NCBI RefSeq assembly: GCF_005405065.1
Contig: NZ_BJDI01000014.1
Span: forward strand, 1 to 64,000
Origin: Lactiplantibacillus nangangensis
Lineage (GTDB): Bacteria > Bacillota > Bacilli > Lactobacillales > Lactobacillaceae
Reading direction: 5' to 3'
DNA: 64,000 nt
The translations under genes and the position numbers were made by a program. The notes beneath the pieces are model-generated. The model searched no databases. It was given only the letters and a program-made list of their open reading frames with translations, and was not told the DNA's origin. This document shows positions 4,769-29,673 of this stretch, one piece after another; the stretch's first letter is position 1; each line of letters starts with the position of its first letter.

Positions 4769-4798
4769 ATTTTAGCATACTTTACCCTAGAGTGATAA
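4769..4798 (-). promoter_or_regulatory. Probable fba promoter
   Basis: On the minus strand an extended -10 TGcTAAAAT (hexamer at 4769-4774) lies about 50 bases upstream of the fba start, with TTATCA at 4793-4798 and an 18-base spacer. Match to consensus is moderate. Confidence 0.45.
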
Positions 4799-4985
4799 CC
4801 GATTTGCGATATTTCTTAACCAACCCAACCCGCTTAACACCGGGGCTCGCCAGACCATTGCAAATGTAAGCCTTTTCAAGAATATCATACGATTTATAAC
4901 GACTTTAGTTGCGACAGTCAACTAATGATAAAAATTAAGTTAGTTAATTTGTGAAATATATAACTAAATATTAGTATATCAATAA

Positions 4986-19898: not shown

Positions 19899-20432
19899 TT
19901 AGGATTCTAAGGGCATCGAATATTTTGTAAATTTGGCAAATTGTTCATTTTCTGGAATTAAGATACTCAACCGAGCCGCTGCTGTCCGATTCCGATAGTC
20001 ATCAGCTCGGGTCGTGAAATAAAATTGCGCACTTTTTTCAGTTGGATCTTCGACTTCTTTTTGCGTAAACGGCCGGCCATCAAGATGGCGCATCGGAATA
20101 CTCATGTTGCTATAGCCATACGGAATATTTAGCCACATCCCATGAGTGATATTATAGTTGCCGCGTTTATTGCCATAATGGCTGGGCTTAAGCTGCTGTA
20201 TTTTCATGACGACTGCCACTTGCCGCTCATTACCAGACTGAGTAGTTTTAGTTGTTAACACTTTGAAATTCACAGAGTCTGTTTTAACCCACTGGCCTTG
20301 TGAAAACATTTTTTCGCGAACGGGATGCTGATCAACTTGATTAAGGTCATAATAGCGTTTACCTGCCAAGCCAACACCGGCGATTATGATGATAACAACA
20401 ACCAGCCACCTGAGCGATTTAGACAATTTCAT
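19899..20432 (-). CDS. Membrane-anchored exported protein of the ABC locus
   Basis: A 177-residue protein with one N-terminal membrane helix (residues about 8-25) and an extracytoplasmic domain of about 150 residues (WVKTDSVNFKVLTTKTT, VAVVMKIQQLKPSHYGNKRG, WLNIPYGYSNMSIPMRHLDG). Strand content suggests an Ig-like or DUF-type beta domain; no family is recognised. The gene overlaps the ABC ATPase gene by 14 bases, so it is the last gene of the exporter operon and a candidate accessory or immunity protein. Confidence 0.75.
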   Translation of the reverse strand: MKLSKSLRWLVVVIIIIAGVGLAGKRYYDLNQVDQHPVREKMFSQGQWVKTDSVNFKVLTTKTTQSGNERQVAVVMKIQQLKPSHYGNKRGNYNITHGMWLNIPYGYSNMSIPMRHLDGRPFTQKEVEDPTEKSAQFYFTTRADDYRNRTAAARLSILIPENEQFAKFTKYSMPLES

Positions 20433-21054
20433 CCACAGTCCCAGCCTTTACTTTAATTCGCTTAGTCGCAACCTGTTCAATAAAATCCCGATCGTGTGAC
20501 GTGATTAAAAATGTTGACCCTACAAGCTGAAGCTTCTTAATATAGCCAATCAAGTTTTGCACACTAGTTTCATCCAGCGCATTCGTTGGTTCATCCAACA
20601 CAATCAAGTCGCACTGACCTAACATCGCCTGTGCGATGCCTAATTTTTGTTTCATTCCTAACGAAAACTTTCTGACCTTAGTCCGGTTATCAACCGGTAG
20701 CTCAAATTGCGTCAACAATTGCCGAATAGCCGTCTCATCAACATTTTCAAGCAAGTCTGCAATCAACTGTAAGTTTTTAAATGCCGAAAATTCGGTTAAT
20801 ACACTCGGCGTTTCAATCAAGACCCCCGCCCGGATTGGATAACGTCCACTAACAGTCACCTTGGAACCATTAACGGTAACCGTCCCAGTCGTTTTAATCA
20901 GACCCAAGATGGCTTTTAAAATTAACGTTTTCCCAGAACCATTAATCCCCTCTAAAGTGGTCACCGACCCTTCTTCAGCCACAAATGATACATTGGTCAG
21001 CAATTGTTTACCAGTAATGGTTTTGCCAACATGATCTAATTCAATCAGTGCCAT
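20419..21054 (-). CDS. ABC transporter ATP-binding protein
   Basis: A 211-residue ABC ATPase: Walker A GINGSGKTLILK, signature VRKFSLGMKQKLGIAQAM, Walker B LIVLDEPTNALD, H-loop LITSHDRDF. It is short and exporter-like (bacitracin/lantibiotic self-protection type). The start chosen is ATG 21054, after GGAAGTGAG; an in-frame ATG at 21072 would overlap the upstream gene. It energises the three membrane proteins encoded upstream. Confidence 0.9.
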   Translation of the reverse strand: MALIELDHVGKTITGKQLLTNVSFVAEEGSVTTLEGINGSGKTLILKAILGLIKTTGTVTVNGSKVTVSGRYPIRAGVLIETPSVLTEFSAFKNLQLIADLLENVDETAIRQLLTQFELPVDNRTKVRKFSLGMKQKLGIAQAMLGQCDLIVLDEPTNALDETSVQNLIGYIKKLQLVGSTFLITSHDRDFIEQVATKRIKVKAGTVDEIV

Positions 21055-21062
21055 ATTTTCAC

Positions 21063-21773
21063 TCACTTCCATTCAGTCTTGCCATAAATGCCAACGTACA
21101 ACATGCCAATAATTAAGTCACTAATGACCAATAGCCAAGATAACCCCGGCTTTAATCCCAACAACCTCGGCCACATCGTCAAGTTGATTGGGTTGATGAG
21201 ACTGACCGTAAAGACCGTATAAGTGAGTAATACAATCGGTAAAAGCAATCCCCCAACTGGATGAATCCAGCCTGCAAACTGCTGTATTAACGCAAGTAAC
21301 ATCAATACCCAAAATAATTGCCAGCCAAAGTTAAGATAAGTCACCAGTATCTGTTGCCAGTCAATTTTCGATCGAAATAGCTCAACACTAAGTCCGATTA
21401 GCTGGACAGTACAAACATAACTAAAGTTGACACCGCTCATTAAAATAAGATTATTGAGCCCAAACTGGCACTTAGTGTACCCATACCCTTTAACTTTAAT
21501 AAACAGGTTCACCCACAGTTGTTTAAAACTATCCCCCACGATAAACGCAGGAAAAATCAGCAATAACAACCAAAACGGTGGTAAATACGGATAGCCTTGT
21601 TGAACCGCCGTGAAATCAGGACCAGTAATCGTTGCCCTTAAAATTGAAATACGCATCGGTAATTGACTCGTGTGAACGAGAATTAGGACTAGATAACCGC
21701 CAAGTAACCAATACAATCGTTTAGAGATCAGTGACCAAAAATAGAGCCATTGACTATATAGCAACTTTTTCAT
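21063..21773 (-). CDS. ABC-2-like membrane protein
   Basis: A 236-residue protein with six hydrophobic segments beginning MKKLLYSQWLYFWSLISKRLYWLLGGYLVLILVH. It has the general shape of small exporter permeases found with DUF2712-type secreted proteins (recalled, not searched). It is one of three adjacent, mutually dissimilar membrane proteins in the operon, nine bases before the ATPase gene. Confidence 0.75.
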   Translation of the reverse strand: MKKLLYSQWLYFWSLISKRLYWLLGGYLVLILVHTSQLPMRISILRATITGPDFTAVQQGYPYLPPFWLLLLIFPAFIVGDSFKQLWVNLFIKVKGYGYTKCQFGLNNLILMSGVNFSYVCTVQLIGLSVELFRSKIDWQQILVTYLNFGWQLFWVLMLLALIQQFAGWIHPVGGLLLPIVLLTYTVFTVSLINPINLTMWPRLLGLKPGLSWLLVISDLIIGMLYVGIYGKTEWK

Positions 21774-21774
21774 C

Positions 21775-22455
21775 TTAGTAATCTCGCTGCTTGATCAAAA
21801 TCAATAACAGTTGCATCAATACGTACAGGATTAACATCAATATACCCCAGCTAGCGAACTTATTGATTGGTGCTTGCGATGCAGTAAATTGCCAAAACGG
21901 CATCGATAGTTTGTTCAAATATAGTGAAAAGAAAATCATATTGGCACCTAGCACGACCGTTGCGCCAATCAATTTACTTTTCGTCAGCTGAAAAGCTACC
22001 AGTGCAACGATCACCAGTACCATTTGATTTCCAAGAACTTCAAATGTGCTGAATATCAAAACAAGTGCTGCTTGGAAATTGATCATAATGCCAATATGCC
22101 AGCTCATGACTAACGTTGTCACCGCCCAAGGAAGCCAAAGCGCTGTCTGAACCAATGTGCTCTGTATTACCCACTGCTGGTATAGCGTTTTACGGCAGCC
22201 AGAAATTAAATAATCGACTTGTCGATAGCTTAATTGTGTGATACTAATGAGCGCTGTGACTGGTAAATAAACTAACCCTAGCAAGTAGGCATCAAACCAG
22301 GTAACGTACACGTTAGCAAAGGTGGCTGGTACTTGGTTGATCATCATTAGCTTACTGACAACCATCAACATTATTAAGCCATAGGTGACGCTCATTGGTT
22401 TTAGAAATAGTGGTAAATATCGGACTTGTTGCCGACCAATCTTATAAATCTGCAA
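21775..22455 (-). CDS. ABC-2-like membrane protein
   Basis: A 226-residue protein with six hydrophobic segments (for example SVTYGLIMLMVVSKLMMI, WVIQSTLVQTALWLPWAVTTLV, ILMLILYVLMQLLLILI). It overlaps the upstream membrane protein gene by 14 bases and ends one base before the next, so the three are translationally coupled. No independent function can be read. Confidence 0.75.
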   Translation of the reverse strand: MQIYKIGRQQVRYLPLFLKPMSVTYGLIMLMVVSKLMMINQVPATFANVYVTWFDAYLLGLVYLPVTALISITQLSYRQVDYLISGCRKTLYQQWVIQSTLVQTALWLPWAVTTLVMSWHIGIMINFQAALVLIFSTFEVLGNQMVLVIVALVAFQLTKSKLIGATVVLGANMIFFSLYLNKLSMPFWQFTASQAPINKFASWGILMLILYVLMQLLLILIKQRDY

Positions 22456-23236
22456 GTTTTCTCGCTCCGATCCGCGTTAAGACGCCAATAAGACCGATCA
22501 TAACCAACGTCAGGATAATCATCCCCACGAAACTCGTATTTGAAGTCGCTGATTGCTTTAAGAAATCCATTGGTGCAAAGCTTCCCGAAAAAAAGTGAAG
22601 CTCTTGAATGAGTAGTAATCCTAATTGTAGCAACAGACCGGTACTTAATGCCAAGAACCGATTTTTCAAATGTAGTGACATGGCGGTGATAAACGTTGCA
22701 AAGAGACCACCCCAAAGAAGTACCAAGCTGATGTTCAACAACGAATGTACCCAAGGATGTTGATAATACAAGCCAACACCAAAAGTATTCGCGTGTATCA
22801 CTAAGATATTCTGATTCAATAAATTATCTGGAACAATGCTTGGGTAGAACAAGGCAAAGAAGCTAATATTTAGAAGCAACGGCAATGCAACAATTAGCCC
22901 ACCCAGAATAAATGACCACGCATAATAGGTAGCGACAACTTTTGCCAATACCCCTTTTAATCTTAGTTGCATCAAATAACCATTTTCAGCATCTTTTTTC
23001 AACAACGTTGCAGCTGGTAATGCCGCTAGCAACGGGATAACTAAATAATAGGTCACAGCTGCAAAATTGAACCCATCAACGCCCATCCAGAGCGTGAAGG
23101 GCGAGTCCAAAAAAATATTTTTTTGACCCAAGTGTGACCGTAACCGCTGATATAGCTGAATCATTGGCAATACCAATGCCAGCATGACCGAGAACAAAAG
23201 TGCTTGTTTATTAAATCGATGCCACAAGTTAATCAC
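22442..23236 (-). CDS. ABC-2-like membrane protein
   Basis: A 264-residue protein with six or seven hydrophobic segments; loops NIFLDSPFTLWMGVDGFNF and FTAATLLKKDAENG-type. Start is GTG 23236 behind AAAGGAGG. It is the first intact gene after the frameshifted secreted protein gene and 68 bases from it, with a small GTATAGT/ACTATAC hairpin in the gap that may act as attenuator. Confidence 0.75.
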   Translation of the reverse strand: MINLWHRFNKQALLFSVMLALVLPMIQLYQRLRSHLGQKNIFLDSPFTLWMGVDGFNFAAVTYYLVIPLLAALPAATLLKKDAENGYLMQLRLKGVLAKVVATYYAWSFILGGLIVALPLLLNISFFALFYPSIVPDNLLNQNILVIHANTFGVGLYYQHPWVHSLLNISLVLLWGGLFATFITAMSLHLKNRFLALSTGLLLQLGLLLIQELHFFSGSFAPMDFLKQSATSNTSFVGMIILTLVMIGLIGVLTRIGARKLADL

Positions 23237-23277
23237 AGTTTTTCCTCCTTTAGATTACTTTGAAGCGATATGTATAG

Positions 23278-23289
23278 TGTGGAGATGAG
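23278..23289 (+). repeat. Left arm of a 12-bp inverted repeat flanking the secreted-protein gene
   Basis: TGTGGAGATGAG; its exact reverse complement is at 23744-23755, in the 5' leader of the same gene, just before the ribosome site. The two copies are 454 bp apart. Confidence 0.6.
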
Positions 23290-23304
23290 ACTATACTTTA
23301 GTAG

Positions 23305-23722
23305 TTAAACACTGTCTGGGCTCCAAACACCTGCTGCTGACAAGTTCTTGATACTTGTACTATTAATCCGCACAGAAATTCCTGATCCATACTCTTCAAC
23401 TGCCGTATTCCATAAGTAATCAACTTGCCCTTTGTATGAGTTATAGGCATGATCATGATTGACAGCAGTCCCGTCACCAAGTGCAGCCCAAATCCTAATA
23501 TAATCGCCATCACCCGACATATACGTCGTATGATTGTAGTACGATGTTGTATCAGTCTTAATACGCACAGGTGTATTATCGTTTTGGCTCCAAAATCTAT
23601 ACTCATTGCTCCAGTTAGGAATCTCCGAAATTAGAGGCTTGTACATTAAAAGCACCAACACCTAATCCAGTAAAGACAATTGCTGTTGCTGCAACCAGTC
23701 CCATTTTCTTAAATACAGTCAT
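23305..23722 (-). pseudogene. Frameshifted secreted DUF2712-like protein
   Basis: From ATG 23722 (AGGAG site) the frame encodes a signal peptide MTVFKKMGLVAATAIVF...GAFNVQA-SNFGDS and stops at 23615-23617. The mature part continues in the next frame: NWSNEYRFWSQNDNTPVRIK, YMSGDGDYIRIWAALGD, and a C-terminal GVWSPDSV. One base removed near the stop would join them into about 138 residues. The N-terminal export signal and G-x-W-S-P-D-S ending are what I associate with DUF2712 proteins encoded beside ABC exporters. Its function is unknown; the break could be a mutation or a sequencing error. Confidence 0.75.
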
Positions 23723-24322: not shown

Positions 24323-24967
24323 ATGAAAATGATAAAGATTTTTCTTAATGCATATTTTAAAAATGGCCTTTTATTTCTTATAATAATTTATTTAATCACA
24401 GCTCCACGGGCAGGCCCTTTTGTATTTCGTTGGAATATTCAAAACTTATATTTAACTTGTGCCTACTTGATGTTCTATCCACTAATAATCCTAGCAAGTC
24501 CAAAGCAGATAGTTCAGAAAATAAAGTTCACCTCCGTAGCATCAAAATCATATAATCAAGATATTAAGGATATTCCAAGCTAGGAAAGAAGAACATGGAG
24601 TACCATTAATCCAATGATCAGCAATCGCAGTATTATGATACAAAATAGTGCTTCGGATGATTTTATTTCTGGTATTGTAAACTTTCTTGTTCGGGGTATG
24701 GTGCTAATTTTTTCTGGACCAATCTTGTTATTCATATATTCCAAATCATTGCTTAAAAATCGATGTACTAACTATGAAAAAAATAAATTACTGTTATTAT
24801 TGCCAATTATTGCTTTATCAATTCTTGGAAGTAGCTTAACAGCACATGCAGCAACCCATTTCTACACAGTAAAATTACAAAATGCTTCATCACATTACGA
24901 ATTGCCAGTAGGATTTGGCGAAGATGATGGTGATGGTGATGGTAATATCGTCTGGCCTGTCCAATAG
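24323..24967 (+). pseudogene. Membrane protein/secreted peptide gene interrupted by an in-frame stop
   Basis: ATG 24323 behind GGGAGGAT opens a frame of 86 residues with two hydrophobic segments, ending at TAG 24581-24583. The same frame continues without a break to 24967: another hydrophobic segment (NFLVRGMVLIFSGPILLFIY), then a signal-peptide-like stretch NKLLLLLPIIALSILGSSLTAHA and a 38-residue tail with the acidic GEDDGDGDGNIVWP. The last part alone looks like a small exported peptide; one extra A in the A7 run after ATG 24774 would give it its own start, but no ribosome site is seen. No family recognised. Confidence 0.5.
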
Positions 24968-25159
24968 TCTAAATATAGAAGACTAATCTGCGTCATTCTG
25001 ACCCCAGTTGATTCACGAAAAGTAGTTCAGGACCTTTGAATCGTTAGACGATAAGGCACCGAGCTATTTTTCATGAGTAAGCTGGTATATTCTTTGTTTC
25101 TTAATATTATTAACAATTGTTCCATATTGTTACTGATCATTGACTGTGGTTAAATCACG

Positions 25160-25181
25160 TTATAACAACCGGTTGTTATAA
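25160..25181 (+). promoter_or_regulatory. Perfect 22-bp palindrome overlapping the peptide-gene promoter
   Basis: The half-site TTATAACAACC is followed directly by its reverse complement. The right arm overlaps an extended -10 (TGtTATAAT, hexamer 25177-25182). The size fits a dimeric repressor such as a TetR-type protein, but no regulator gene is in the locus. Confidence 0.7.
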
Positions 25182-25207
25182 TTTAGATTGAGAAGAGAGA
25201 GATAGGT

Positions 25208-25270
25208 ATGGACATTCAAGAAGTTATTGAAGTACATGAGAGTCTTCAAAATCGTGTTGGTGGGCAATAA
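25208..25270 (+). CDS. Candidate RiPP/microcin C-like precursor peptide, 20 residues
   Basis: A short frame encoding MDIQEVIEVHESLQNRVGGQ, with purine-rich GAGAGAGATAGG upstream. It has its own promoter, an operator-like palindrome, and a strong terminator before the next gene, so it is transcribed as an abundant small message. The next gene encodes an E1-like adenylating enzyme with a peptide-recognition-type N-terminal domain, as in microcin C and pantocin loci. Residues 3-17 could form an amphipathic helix (I3, V6, I7, V9, L13, V17) suited to leader recognition; the C terminus is Gly-Gly-Gln. That it is translated and modified is inference from context. Confidence 0.6.
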   Translation: MDIQEVIEVHESLQNRVGGQ

Positions 25271-25290
25271 TATTTTAGTTGAACTAGAGG

Positions 25291-25329
25291 GTGTCTATTC
25301 AAGTGTGATTTTGAGTAGACACTTTTTTT
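25291..25329 (+). terminator. Terminator/attenuator between peptide and E1-like genes
   Basis: A 12-bp stem (25291-25302 with 25311-25322, one G-U pair), eight-base loop and seven T. In microcin C operons a hairpin at this place limits readthrough so the peptide message is made in excess; the same is likely here. Confidence 0.9.
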
Positions 25330-25344
25330 ATAGGAGGGTTATAA

Positions 25345-26403
25345 ATGAATTTTAATAAACCAATGATGAAGCCAATGCTGATTCCATTCATTAATGAAGA
25401 ACATACAGGTATCAGAATAGGTGGGTTTCAAGCAAGAATTGCTAGAGACATTATTGTAAGTAACCCACAGGAATTCTTAGGATTTCTGAAAGACTTAAAT
25501 GGTGAAAACACTTTGGACATATTGCAGCAAAAATATAACTTAAATAGCCTTCAAATGAATAACCTATTGCAAAAGCTAAAAGAGTGTGGGGCAATCTATG
25601 AAAATAATAGTAAAAACTTCTCTGAAAAAGAAATAAGACTCTATAATAGAAACATCAATTTTTTTGCATGGATAGATATTGTAGGAAAGTATTACAATTA
25701 CTGGGATGTTCAAGAAACGTTAAAAAAGAGTAAGGTGTTACTCCTCGGTGCTGGTGGTACAGGGAGTAATACTGCTCTAAACCTAGCCCGACTCGGATTT
25801 GGAACTATTACTATTATTGATGGCGATAATGTCGAGGAATCTAACTTAAATCGTCAAACGTATTCACAAGCTGATATTGGTCTTTCTAAGGTTCAAGTGT
25901 TAAAAAAACACTTAGAATCAATTAATCCAATGATTAAAATTGTGCAAAAGAAATGTTGGATAGATACTTTGAATGATCTTACGAAGTTAGGATCTAACTT
26001 TGATATTCTGCTTGATTGTATTGACAAGCCCGAAAATTTACCAACAATTCTGGATAAGTATTGTAAGGAAACAGGTACACCATGGGTTTTAGGGGGGTAT
26101 GCAAGTACTGTCATAAATCATGCGATTTTTGATGGCTCAACTGTTGGATTTGATGAGTTAGTTAAACGCGACCGCGAAAAATATTTGGCATCTCGTGAAA
26201 TCTTCAAAAACACTTTTTGGAAATGGGATAATGCAATTATTTCTCCTATAGCTAATATTTCTGGTAGTATTTCAAGTTTGTATGCACTATACTATGTGAC
26301 CAGTCTTAAAAAGTTAAAAATGGGCATTGTACAGCACATTGATTTCTTTAATTTACAAAACTTAGCCTACTTTTCTTATATATTAGGTGATAGTCAAAAA
26401 TAA
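25345..26403 (+). CDS. E1/ThiF-like peptide-adenylating enzyme (MccB/PaaA-like)
   Basis: A 352-residue protein. Residues about 8-90 resemble a PqqD-like winged-helix recognition domain (MKPMLIPFINEEHTGIRIGG ... FLKDLNGENTLDILQQKY). Residues about 125-290 form the E1 adenylation domain: nucleotide loop VLLLGAGGTGSNTALNLARLG, IIDGDNVEESNLNRQTYSQ with the conserved Asn-Arg, GLSKVQVL with the conserved Lys, and LLDCIDKPENL with the conserved Asp. I see no pair of CxxC zinc motifs, and no obvious catalytic Cys loop. Such enzymes activate a peptide C terminus or side chain with ATP. ATG 25345 is behind AGGAGGGT. The AT-rich composition sets it apart from the chromosome core. Confidence 0.85.
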   Translation: MNFNKPMMKPMLIPFINEEHTGIRIGGFQARIARDIIVSNPQEFLGFLKDLNGENTLDILQQKYNLNSLQMNNLLQKLKECGAIYENNSKNFSEKEIRLYNRNINFFAWIDIVGKYYNYWDVQETLKKSKVLLLGAGGTGSNTALNLARLGFGTITIIDGDNVEESNLNRQTYSQADIGLSKVQVLKKHLESINPMIKIVQKKCWIDTLNDLTKLGSNFDILLDCIDKPENLPTILDKYCKETGTPWVLGGYASTVINHAIFDGSTVGFDELVKRDREKYLASREIFKNTFWKWDNAIISPIANISGSISSLYALYYVTSLKKLKMGIVQHIDFFNLQNLAYFSYILGDSQK

Positions 26404-26425
26404 AGGCGTCAGGAAGTGATCGTTG

Positions 26426-27646
26426 ATGCTAATTAAACAAAACGTCAATTTTAGGCATCTATTTGCTGGCAGACTCGCCAGCAATTGTGGGGATAGTATG
26501 TATATGATTGCACTTTCCTGGTACATACTAGTTCTGACTAAAAGCACGATGTGGGTTGGAATTTTTAATTTTGCAGTTTTTTCCCCGAATGTTGTTTCAT
26601 TTTTATTTGGACCAGTCATCGATCGATACGATAAGCGGAAAATATTAATTTTTCTTGAACTGTTTCAAGCGCTAGTTATCGGAGTGATGACGTTGCTTCT
26701 AATGCAACCGAGTAAAAATAGTCAGCCAATCATTATTTGTTTATTGGCGGCGATAGCTTCTTTTGGTAGCATTAATGCATATACTGTTCAAGATGCACTA
26801 ATTCCTAAATTAGTTCCAGCAAAATCGCTACCGACTGCTGAAATGTATATGTCTTTTTCGTATAATGCTAGCGATTATATTTTTAACGCAATCACCGGTT
26901 TTGCACTAAAAATCATTAGCTATCCAGTGATACTAATACTTGATATTGCGTCATTTATATTTTCTGCACGGACATTTTCAAAAATCATCAGCCCTGAACA
27001 AGTGAAATTTGTTAAGCATAACCATCAAGACTTTCGACAATTCTGTCTGAACCTAATAACGCCGTTTAAACTACTGTACAAGTCAAAGATAGTTTGGGCA
27101 ATTTGTGTCGGCAGTAGTGCGATAAATTTCTTGTTTGGTGGTTTAAATGTCTATACGTTGCTAATTGCGAAATCTTTTGGCGGAGTTACTTTTTTTGGAA
27201 TCATGTCGGCAATTGGCGCATTAGGAACGACGCTAGGCGCTACCTTTCTTGCAAATCGTTGTTTAAAACGGTTCAAGATTGGGCTCGCTTTTTGTCTCAC
27301 GACGTTACTTTTTGGCGTGGCGCTCGTTGGTGCATTTATCTTCAACGCCTCACTGGAACTATTTTTAACTGCATGGCTATTGTTCTTTTCGTTTTTAGGA
27401 ATCAATCAAACAATGCAAAAACCGATCTTACAAAGTAATTTACCTGCTAAAAATATTGGTTCAGTTTTAAGTTGCTTTTACACCCTAACTGTCACAACAA
27501 TTCCAATTGGCTCGGTGTTTTTTGGTTATGTGGCAAAAATGATGGATTGGCGTATTTTCACTTTGATATTTGGTCTCACAACAATGCTACTTGGTGTTGT
27601 CTATTTATTAAATACAAAGTTACGCCAATTTGATCTCTGCAAATAA
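26426..27646 (+). CDS. MFS transporter, probable exporter of the peptide product
   Basis: A 406-residue protein with about 12 hydrophobic segments and MFS signatures (FRHLFAGRLASNCGDSMYMIALSWYI, FLFGPVIDRYDKRKILIFLELFQA). This MFS-3/MdtH-like clade includes macrolide effluxers and MccC-type microcin exporters. It starts 22 bases after the E1-like gene with AGGAAGTGAT, so the two are co-transcribed, and its likely role is export of, or self-protection from, the modified peptide. The substrate is inferred from position only. Confidence 0.85.
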   Translation: MLIKQNVNFRHLFAGRLASNCGDSMYMIALSWYILVLTKSTMWVGIFNFAVFSPNVVSFLFGPVIDRYDKRKILIFLELFQALVIGVMTLLLMQPSKNSQPIIICLLAAIASFGSINAYTVQDALIPKLVPAKSLPTAEMYMSFSYNASDYIFNAITGFALKIISYPVILILDIASFIFSARTFSKIISPEQVKFVKHNHQDFRQFCLNLITPFKLLYKSKIVWAICVGSSAINFLFGGLNVYTLLIAKSFGGVTFFGIMSAIGALGTTLGATFLANRCLKRFKIGLAFCLTTLLFGVALVGAFIFNASLELFLTAWLLFFSFLGINQTMQKPILQSNLPAKNIGSVLSCFYTLTVTTIPIGSVFFGYVAKMMDWRIFTLIFGLTTMLLGVVYLLNTKLRQFDLCK

Positions 27647-27742
27647 TCGTAAAAGTAATGAAATTTTTTTGTTGTATTTACTATTTTTTATCAGTTTACT
27701 CTTCAATGATATGGGTTTGGGACAGACATTCCTGATTCACTT

Positions 27743-27789
27743 AAAAAAGGTAGCTCTAAAGATTACATGATTTTCAGAGTTACTTTTTT
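27743..27789 (+). terminator. Terminator of the E1-MFS operon
   Basis: AAAAAAGGTAGCTCT pairs with AGAGTTACTTTTTT, extended by AGAT/ATGATTTT-type inner pairs; it ends in six T. Confidence 0.75.
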
Positions 27790-28458
27790 GAAATTATACA
27801 CATAAACCCCTTCTATTCTTAAAATTCTGCCCTCCAGGAAAAAATTATCTTCATGTAAATGAATCACACTAGTAACCAGACCACTTAAAAGTCAATCTCA
27901 TTTAAAATATCAACAACACACTATCGTTAATGATAAGTCCTATTATTAAGGCTTACATAGCGGCTACTGAGTGCCCAAACACCACCATAATTACTAACTG
28001 TTTTCTTATTTTATTACGTACGGTCTACTTTTCAGATCATAAGATTGCTCACATAGCTAATGAAGTCTTTGTGATGCAGTGGTTTATTGACAATAGTTAT
28101 TCCATACCGAGTTCTTGAACCCTTGACCATTTTCAAAGTAACCCTAAAACTAAATTGCTAATTACTGGGCTCTTCAAGGGTTTTCATGATTACCTAAACA
28201 TACTTGTTTTTTGATGAAGCATCGAACAAAAATCTTAATTACTGCCAATAAATGTAGTTACATTTAGAACAAGATTGTCGAAAGAACTGAGCCTAAACAC
28301 GAAGATAAAGTTACACGTCTTTAACATGAATCAAATGATTATAAAGAAAAATGGTATCAATTGCTACAAACCAGCAACTGACGCCACTTACTTAGATTGG
28401 TTCTAGGGCTTCCCAGCTTCCATCAGATTATTCCCACCAATGTCCGTCGAAAATAACC
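27790..28458. other. AT-rich region with a probable gene remnant
   Basis: No intact gene. On the plus strand 28273-28455 reads IVERTEPKHEDKVTRL-stop-HESNDYKEKWYQLLQTSN-stop-RHLLRLVLGLPSFHQIIPTN and then TAA; the charged, heptad-like composition looks like decayed coding sequence of unknown origin, possibly mobile. The AT-rich accessory block ends here, next to ackA. Confidence 0.35.
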
Positions 28459-29673
28459 CTATTTAGCGATTGGCGCGCGATGTGTCAAGCGTTCCACATC
28501 CCGAACGATCATTAATTCTTCATTAGTTGGCACAACCATTACCGTGACCGGTTCGTTTGGCTTACTGATCACTTGTTCAACGCCATGACAATTGTTCTTG
28601 TCTTCGTCGATCGTGATGCCGAAGTAACCCAACTGATTTAAAATCCGTGACCGCATTGCAACAGAGTTTTCACCGACCCCAGCTGTAAAGACCAAGGCAT
28701 CCAAGCCGTTCATTTCAGCGATGTAGCTGCCGATATATTTAATGACCCGGTTGGCAAAAATCTCTAGGGCAAGTTCTGCGCGATGATTATGATCATTATT
28801 CGCCGCATTATCCAAATCCCGCATGTCGGGTGACACGCCAGAAATACCTAATAGCCCTGACTTATTATTCAAAATATCAATAAAGTCTTGGACATCAGAA
28901 ATACCGAGGTGCCGCATCAAAAACGGAATCATCGAGGCATCAATATCCCCAGAACGCGTACTCATTGTGATCCCGGCTAACGGTGTGAAACCCATCGACG
29001 TATCAATGGCTTTACCGTGATCAAACGCGGTAATTGACGCACCAGAGCCTAAATGTAACGTGATCAATTTCAAGTCTGCTAACGGCTTGCCGAGTAATTC
29101 AGCGGTCCGTTGGGCGACATAACGATGACTCGTGCCGTGTGCCCCATATTTACGAGCGCCAAATTGTTTGTAATACTCGTAAGGCACGCTGTAGAGGTAA
29201 TTGACCTCAGGCATCGTTACATACAAGGACGTATCGAATACGGCAACTTGTACCGCTTTTGGTAACAATTGCTGGAACACTTCAATATAATAGGCCTGCG
29301 TTGGATTATGTAGCGGCGCATACTCTGATAAATCTTTGATTTGTTTCAACGTGGTTGGGGTAATGACCACGGAATCTTTAAAGTCTTCCCCACCAGCAAC
29401 GATCCGATGACCGATGCCTGTAATCTCGGTCAAATGTTCAACGATTCCGTCACTCTTCAAGCGGGTCAGCACCATTGCCGCCGCTTCTTGTGCATTAATT
29501 TTATCATGTGTCTCCGAATACTTATCGCCATCGGCCTTCTTTAAAACAAACACCGAATTCGATAACCCCAAACGGTCAACCATCCCTGAGGCGATCACCG
29601 TTTCTTCTGGTAAGCTGAAAAGCTTCCACTTCAAAGTTGAACTACCCGCATTAATTGCTAATACTTTTGCCAT
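28459..29673 (-). CDS. ackA: Acetate kinase
   Basis: A 404-residue cytoplasmic kinase converting acetyl-phosphate and ADP to acetate and ATP. Visible family motifs: VLAINAGSSTLKWKLF at the N terminus, VFDTSLYVTMPEVNYLYSVP, RKYGAHGTSHRYV, LITLHLGSGASITAFDHGKA, DTSMGFTPLAGITMSTRSGDID and VFTAGVGENS. ATG 29673 follows GGAGGAAATAG. It takes the acetyl-phosphate made by the pyruvate oxidase encoded at 42836-44593. A good cre site lies upstream. Confidence 0.96.
   Translation of the reverse strand: MAKVLAINAGSSTLKWKLFSLPEETVIASGMVDRLGLSNSVFVLKKADGDKYSETHDKINAQEAAAMVLTRLKSDGIVEHLTEITGIGHRIVAGGEDFKDSVVITPTTLKQIKDLSEYAPLHNPTQAYYIEVFQQLLPKAVQVAVFDTSLYVTMPEVNYLYSVPYEYYKQFGARKYGAHGTSHRYVAQRTAELLGKPLADLKLITLHLGSGASITAFDHGKAIDTSMGFTPLAGITMSTRSGDIDASMIPFLMRHLGISDVQDFIDILNNKSGLLGISGVSPDMRDLDNAANNDHNHRAELALEIFANRVIKYIGSYIAEMNGLDALVFTAGVGENSVAMRSRILNQLGYFGITIDEDKNNCHGVEQVISKPNEPVTVMVVPTNEELMIVRDVERLTHRAPIAK

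Follow-up and report, generated by a model that had tools for sequence, protein, structure and literature searches.

A putative peptide-modification cassette with an Arg-x-Gly-Gly-x precursor tail in Lactiplantibacillus nangangensis

A compact predicted RiPP cassette

We analysed a 64,000-nucleotide stretch of Lactiplantibacillus nangangensis DNA (contig NZ_BJDI01000014.1, positions 1 to 64,000; hereafter the window), in which positions 25140-27646 hold a 20-residue peptide gene, a hairpin, a gene for an E1/ThiF-like adenylating enzyme with a recognition-type N-terminal domain, and a gene for a major facilitator superfamily (MFS) protein (Table 1). Judged by sequence, the locus belongs, as a variant, to the recently recognised group of ribosomally synthesised and post-translationally modified peptide (RiPP) systems in which a RiPP recognition element (RRE) is fused to a ThiF/E1 domain (MccB, PaaA, GrcB, EnfB, IndF): it has the fusion, an adjacent short precursor gene and a transporter. 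We read it as a compact RiPP cassette in which the C-terminus of the peptide would be adenylated, a ring closed within the peptide with loss of water, and the product exported by the MFS protein, and we give this reading as a whole a probability of about 0.55. A first-pass annotation of the same DNA had proposed a microcin C-like RiPP or peptidyl-nucleotide locus with a new kind of precursor; a RiPP-like peptide-modification locus with a precursor unlike MccA is what we also find, but membership of the microcin C family is not retained.

A conserved tail on the precursor peptides

The peptide gene was recovered as described in the first-pass annotation and would encode a product with the tail NRVGGQ, lacking Cys, Trp and a C-terminal Asn. 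Members of the enzyme's clade (defined below) were found in 13 genomes, the window's included, and in 11 of these 13, again counting the window, a short peptide gene stands upstream of the enzyme. It is absent from G733 and G226. The G733 locus (L051) is a copy of the G557 type in which a deletion has taken out both peptide and RRE, so that the sequence ahead of the peptide is fused directly to the mid-part of the enzyme gene.

The peptides share features at their C-terminal ends. Arg lies fifth from the C-terminus in seven of the eight distinct peptides, a result equalled by none of 20000 shuffles; with one near-duplicate removed and any residue or column permitted, 12 of 20000 shuffles equalled it. 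Gly-Gly is found in five of the eight (as GGQ, GGH or GGR), the relatives ending in GGR, GGH, GSR, GKR or SDH. The last residue is Arg in five, His in two, Gln in one and Asn in none, so the lack of a C-terminal Asn first remarked in the window peptide extends across the clade. Thus a small upstream frame with a common tail is indeed conserved in related loci, but the strict Gly-Gly-Gln ending anticipated for it varies. A tail pattern designed after the peptides had been seen turned up 14 times when 28161 stop codons in 15 sequences were scanned; eight of the 14 lie ahead of the gene for a clade enzyme, three of those eight being near-identical loci, and the Listeria peptide falls outside the pattern.

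In their codons, the tails GHRVGGR and GHRLGGR are set apart by one V/L change and two changes that are synonymous, and the N-termini of the two peptides are unlike. The window and Listeria cossartiae peptides can be aligned along 20 residues with no gap, having M1, I3, V9, N15 and R16 in common, and their leaders carry charge of opposite sign. Leader and RRE charges (-4/0 in the window, +7/-2 in Listeria, +6/-9 in G736) run in the expected direction, in three pairs only.

An RRE-E1 enzyme in a clade of its own

The enzyme encoded downstream matches PF00899 (E 1.3e-39), and its R170, K182 and D227, the adenylation residues first described as intact, are kept and invariant among eight aligned clade members. 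Arg, Lys and Asp residues of the same kind are reported as necessary for ATP and Mg in the available text on EnfB (PMC12250964). Among solved proteins, phmmer placed MccB closest (2.5e-21) and PaaA (2e-18) among those that follow, and an eight-sequence clade profile gave 2.7e-43 for MccB and 5.9e-29 for PaaA. Generic ThiF/MoeB models of NCBIfam also match, all below their cut-offs among the 25 of 38 models listed, the best MoeB/ThiF-type score among these being 113.5 bits against a cut-off of 159. PADLOC assigned E1-E2 matches to the enzyme, an identity that we dismissed because the matches come from the shared E1 domain only.

The N-terminal domain is RRE-like, in keeping with its initial description as a recognition domain. 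The N-terminal ~105 residues of seven clade members aligned with those of nine other RRE-ThiF proteins at an hhalign probability of 98.5 (E 1.7e-15), and the joint 16-sequence profile, window included, matched the whole length of the PaaA N-terminal domain as its best RRE match in the PDB (E 1.2e-9), with weak matches to MusD (0.002) and LynD (0.024) among winged-helix regulators. The zinc-binding CxxC pairs, noted as missing from the window enzyme, are missing from all 10 distinct clade rows scored (one a fragment), whereas two pairs are present in 37 of 41 non-clade rows, among them those of E. coli MccB and MoeB. Of the four non-clade rows that depart from this, two are short frames and two plasmid proteins; CxxC loss is thus not exclusive to the clade.

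A tree was built from 41 of 52 scored ThiF-like proteins, 11 duplicates, near-copies or fragments having been excluded, with one annotated MoeB and one RRE-less ThiF/MoeB-type protein (so named by length and domain) as outgroup rows. The clade (nine rows) forms one side of a branch with support 97/95 and splits into a branch of window, G736 and Listeria and a branch of all others. Both outgroup proteins and E. coli MccB fall outside it, MccB on a long branch whose exact position is unsure. The enzyme therefore does not group with MoeB/ThiF proteins, and on its placement, together with the RRE and the upstream peptide, we reject the reading as a MoeB/ThiF sulfur-transfer enzyme.

A first database scan returned a single relative, from Listeria cossartiae (52% identity). 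Enzyme matches occurred in 3 of 301 family genomes (E 1e-30), 1 of 21 genus genomes, 5 of 345 order genomes (one of which looks, by coordinates, like the same Listeria genome) and, at a looser 1e-28, 54 of 398 class genomes, where the close ones were the window and G557 only. Within the genus of the Listeria genome there were matches in 2 of 25, one being the RRE-less ThiF/MoeB-type protein; the genus of G557 gave 11 of 284, eight of them close, and that of G140 2 of 26. No relative was present in the viral contigs searched, and no near DNA match in the plasmids searched. The labels 'streptococcus-like' and 'Lactobacillaceae-like' that we use for relatives are ones that we infer.

One clade enzyme, in G226 (L066 1528-2502, minus strand), lacks the glycine loop (FGIDKIG) and the catalytic Arg (ANLANQ) and adjoins a flavoprotein binding flavin adenine dinucleotide or flavin mononucleotide (PF00890, PF04205); it is perhaps a binding-only remnant. 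The searches also returned other RRE-ThiF loci. L045 (4050-5816; L. plantarum plasmid NZ_CP028335.1) encodes an enzyme with CxxC pairs and two near-identical tandem precursors ending NGSC, and similar GSC-type precursors occur in L053 and L043. Additional loci L011, L054 and L055 have precursors ending VEGR (MSIKKIATPATVVEGR, MKITKVIAAASTVEGR).

Table 1. Features of the window cassette, and peptides encoded upstream of the enzyme gene in related loci
Feature	Position in window	Strand	Basis or remark
Perfect 22-bp palindrome TTATAACAACCGGTTGTTATAA	25160-25181	.	likely operator; read directly from sequence
Precursor peptide gene, MDIQEVIEVHESLQNRVGGQ, 20 aa	25208-25270	+	open reading frame (ORF) reading; similar-tail short ORFs in related loci; tail statistics
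Hairpin then T-run, terminator/attenuator	25286-25327	+	z = -4.59; 0/200 shuffles as stable
RRE + E1/ThiF-like adenylating enzyme, 352 aa, without CxxC pairs	25345-26403	+	homology, alignment, tree, profiles
MFS protein, likely exporter, 406 aa from ATG (TTG at 26423 possible)	26426-27646	+	PF07690, 4.7e-19
Listeria cossartiae upstream peptide, MKIKKIKKVVTKKMNRASDH			
G736 upstream peptide, MKIKKVKKVVDKKSMRSAGGH			
G557 and G860 upstream peptide, MTVVAVQTFPGHRVGGR			
G815, G872, G858 upstream peptide, MSAVPYSFQGHRLGGR			about 430 bp upstream
G952 upstream peptide, MSAVPCSFQGHRLGGR			
G140 (Lactobacillaceae-like genome) upstream peptide, MSSRLPAPKHSSLPPVGFRVGSR			
G186 upstream peptide, MTEVVELPGGWRWGKR			

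The intergenic hairpin and the exporter gene

The strong hairpin and T-run reported between the peptide and enzyme genes stood up to the shuffling control (Table 1), and a hairpin precedes the enzyme gene in all seven clade loci folded (z -2.79 to -4.59; 0-3 of 200 shuffles as stable), the last 131 nt being used for the long G815 spacer. The E. coli mccA-mccB hairpin, folded as a control, gave z -3.11; in that operon, a terminator between mccA and mccB is reported to yield a short mccA message (PMC6495379, available part). A consensus scan listed no terminator at the window hairpin, probably because its stem pairs into the T-run, and Rfam matched nothing at 24500-28500.

Third in order is the MFS gene, as first annotated, with a predicted export role. 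Its product is TIGR00900-like, below that model's cut-off, and shares 41% identity with the Listeria cossartiae MFS protein; both match Pfam MFS. Similarity to MccC was not detectable (E 0.73). A membrane protein is encoded downstream of the enzyme in 11 of 13 clade genomes, one gene further along in Listeria and with the start of the gene only seen in G733; no membrane protein lies beside the enzyme in G736 or G226. The branch of the clade that lacks the window and Listeria has membrane proteins of ~400 aa in this position, which are related to one another and 29 to 100% identical to that of G815.

Between enzyme and exporter in the Listeria locus (L002 6049-7032) is a 327-aa protein with no family match and an HLLEH-x72-E motif, which we take to be M16 peptidase-like; the protein is a possible candidate for a leader peptidase.

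Regulation and genomic surroundings

The operator-like palindrome first described upstream of the peptide gene is perfect and is unique in the 2.9-Mb genome with up to three mismatches allowed, and we regard it as a likely operator. An extended -10-like element, TGTTATAAT (25174-25182), overlaps its right half, but a TTGACT at 25140 lies 31 nt from this element, and a consensus scan found no plus-strand hexamer pair with normal spacing around the palindrome; the promoter originally annotated here is thus retained in its -10-like part only. No regulator was recognised among the scanned ORFs neighbouring the window cassette. An Rgg-type regulator adjoins the Listeria locus (PF21259, E 0.0005, below the model cut-off) and, with a clear match, the G815 locus (2.2e-41), and the G557 locus includes a helix-turn-helix regulator (HTH_3, 4.9e-13) and what we read as a candidate Phr-like peptide gene. 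In S. thermophilus, 11 of 21 rgg regions are reported to have ThiF or radical S-adenosylmethionine (SAM) genes nearby (PMC12445099, available part). A tiny frame between the Rgg-like gene and the precursor of the Listeria locus (L002 ~4787-4822, MTALIFWILGG) could be a candidate short hydrophobic pheromone.

With a GC fraction of 0.35, the cassette is poorer in GC than the window outside 23.0-28.5 kb (0.44). Immediately after the exporter gene comes a decayed stretch (27743-28411) with ~68% identity to a transposase gene that is intact on contig 15 of this genome (572 codons, DDE_Tnp_1 7.8e-16). Just upstream of the palindrome, a short stretch (25000-25084) recurs in several genus genomes, at contig ends in one of them, and looks by sequence like a mobile-element end. 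The cassette was probably acquired horizontally.

Further upstream, on the minus strand (20419-23661), a 118-aa frame and three membrane-type proteins, all four without a family match, stand in a row with an ATP-binding cassette (ABC) ATPase, a set that we take to resemble lactococcin 972-type bacteriocin/ABC arrangements.

Discussion

We propose that the 20-residue peptide would probably be overproduced from a short transcript mostly ending at the hairpin, and that its N-terminal part would be held by the RRE. With ATP and Mg, the enzyme would adenylate the C-terminal carboxylate of the NRVGGQ tail. Since the window peptide has no C-terminal Asn, Cys or Trp, attack on the activated carboxyl from within the peptide appears most likely, and this would give a small ring with one water lost. 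The element common to the clade is an Arg before a small-residue turn, and so our first choice is ring closure via Arg or a backbone amide; the conserved Arg five residues from the end would be the best side-chain nucleophile, with the backbone amide next. The MFS protein would then export the product, whose role is probably antibacterial or in signalling; that it acts as an antibiotic or carries a nucleotide is a guess. More specifically, the clade might form a separate RRE-E1 RiPP class without CxxC, in which the Arg side chain attacks the adenylated R-x-G-G-(Q/H/R) end to form a five- or six-residue acylguanidine ring, a proposal that we hold very tentatively.

Several points weigh against this reading. 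The ribosome-binding site of the window peptide is weak, its Shine-Dalgarno sequence (AGAGAGAGAT) falling below both thresholds used (5/7 and 5/6), which the listed peptide genes of the relatives pass. Gly-Gly is missing from the Listeria tail, NRASDH, and the RSAGGH peptide has its Arg sixth from the end; the conserved Arg may serve recognition and not chemistry. Of six loci scanned in the clade branch without the window and Listeria, five have a downstream membrane protein that reaches no Pfam match at 0.001, and that of G186 gives the sole, weak MFS match (8.8e-5, below cut-off), so that 'MFS' is firm for the window and Listeria only. The window cassette contains no leader peptidase gene, and an AlphaFold2 model made from the window and Listeria proteins was unusable (mean predicted local distance difference test score 41).

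How the activated carboxyl is used differs among known RRE-ThiF enzymes. Following adenylation of the peptide carboxyl, Asn (MccB), Glu (PaaA), Cys (GrcB), a backbone amide (EnfB) or Trp (IndF) is reported to take part, according to the available text of two sources (PMC12150305, PMC12250964). Enterofaecin (EnfA/EnfB) and Ind (IndA/IndF), from loci of enterococci and streptococci, resemble the window in their short precursors modified at the C-terminus and their transporters. Their cores are WWIVI and NWYFI, against RVGGQ and GHRVGGR in the window clade, and the window peptide has no such aromatic C-terminal core; Ind also includes an M16 peptidase gene, which the window cassette lacks. EnfB-like chemistry, in which a backbone amide attacks to give a C-terminal imide ring, or an outside amine amidates the end, and Arg only docks the tail, is nevertheless an alternative: EnfB reportedly does both on a 21-residue Enterococcus faecalis precursor (PMC12250964, available part), and Gly-Gly would ease tight ring closure. 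Given the missing aromatic core, and with EnfB compared by description and not by alignment, we consider it unlikely.

The main rival to ring closure is nucleotide transfer to the last residue, that is, microcin C-type chemistry at an end other than Asn. A nucleotide would be joined through the side-chain nitrogen of Gln (His or Arg in relatives) to make a Trojan-horse peptidyl nucleotide directed at another aminoacyl-tRNA synthetase. The order of tiny peptide gene, hairpin, RRE-E1 enzyme and MFS gene is that of E. coli mccA-mccB-mccC, the MccB ATP-site residues recur in the window enzyme, MccB is its best PDB match, and all eight distinct peptides end in a residue with a side-chain nitrogen (Q, H or R). 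However, a Gln end would require a six-membered imide, and to our knowledge none has been described for an MccB-type family. The E. coli precursor has seven residues and a C-terminal Asn, and while a smaller MccB group has precursors of 17-56 residues, all MccA precursors surveyed end in Asn in the part of the survey available (PMC6495379). E. coli MccB has two CxxC pairs and the window enzyme none; the interval 25140-27646 contains no further gene, hence no MccD, MccE or MccF. We therefore think this chemistry improbable. The microcin C-like gene order with its hairpin stands, but the cassette is not a microcin C member, since its precursor has no C-terminal Asn, its enzyme no CxxC pairs and its exporter no detectable similarity to MccC.

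PaaA of pantocin A has the same RRE-ThiF fusion, but pantocin A is reported with a Glu-Glu-Asn core, a PaaB 2-oxoglutarate oxygenase and an EamA exporter (PMC12250964, available part), whereas the window exporter is an MFS protein, no oxygenase gene lies between 25140 and 27646, and the window peptide has neither EE nor EEN, for which reason we reject pantocin-type double-Glu chemistry; the G140 peptide has no Glu at all. GrcB thiolactone loci also combine an RRE-ThiF enzyme with side-chain ring closure of the kind proposed for the window; the window precursor, however, has no Cys and the cassette no radical SAM genes. We also considered a ubiquitin-like reading, in which loss of the last residue would bare an RxGG tail. 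That the 20-codon frame arose by chance, next to an E1 relative that works with a sulfur carrier or modifies tRNA, as the generic ThiF/MoeB matches could suggest, is already disfavoured and highly improbable given the separate clade, the RRE, the recurring peptide genes with a common tail and the exporter.

Ring closure within the peptide thus remains our preferred reading, and with Arg-x-Gly-Gly-x in place of Asn the peptide is probably modified differently from microcin C. Of the papers listed for the tails RVGGR, RLGGR, RVGGQ and RSAGGH (20 of 26), none concerned RiPPs by its title; the other tails were not searched, and because a key survey of ThiF in lactic acid bacteria lay outside the coverage of the search, the tail is not established as unreported. 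Although still a small source of new peptide chemistry, RRE-ThiF enzymes are a growing one. A clade without CxxC and with a defined conserved tail offers a cheap two-component in vitro system for a new ring or conjugate, and one seemingly exchangeable cassette connects lactic-acid-type bacteria with Listeria cossartiae and with streptococcus-like genomes.

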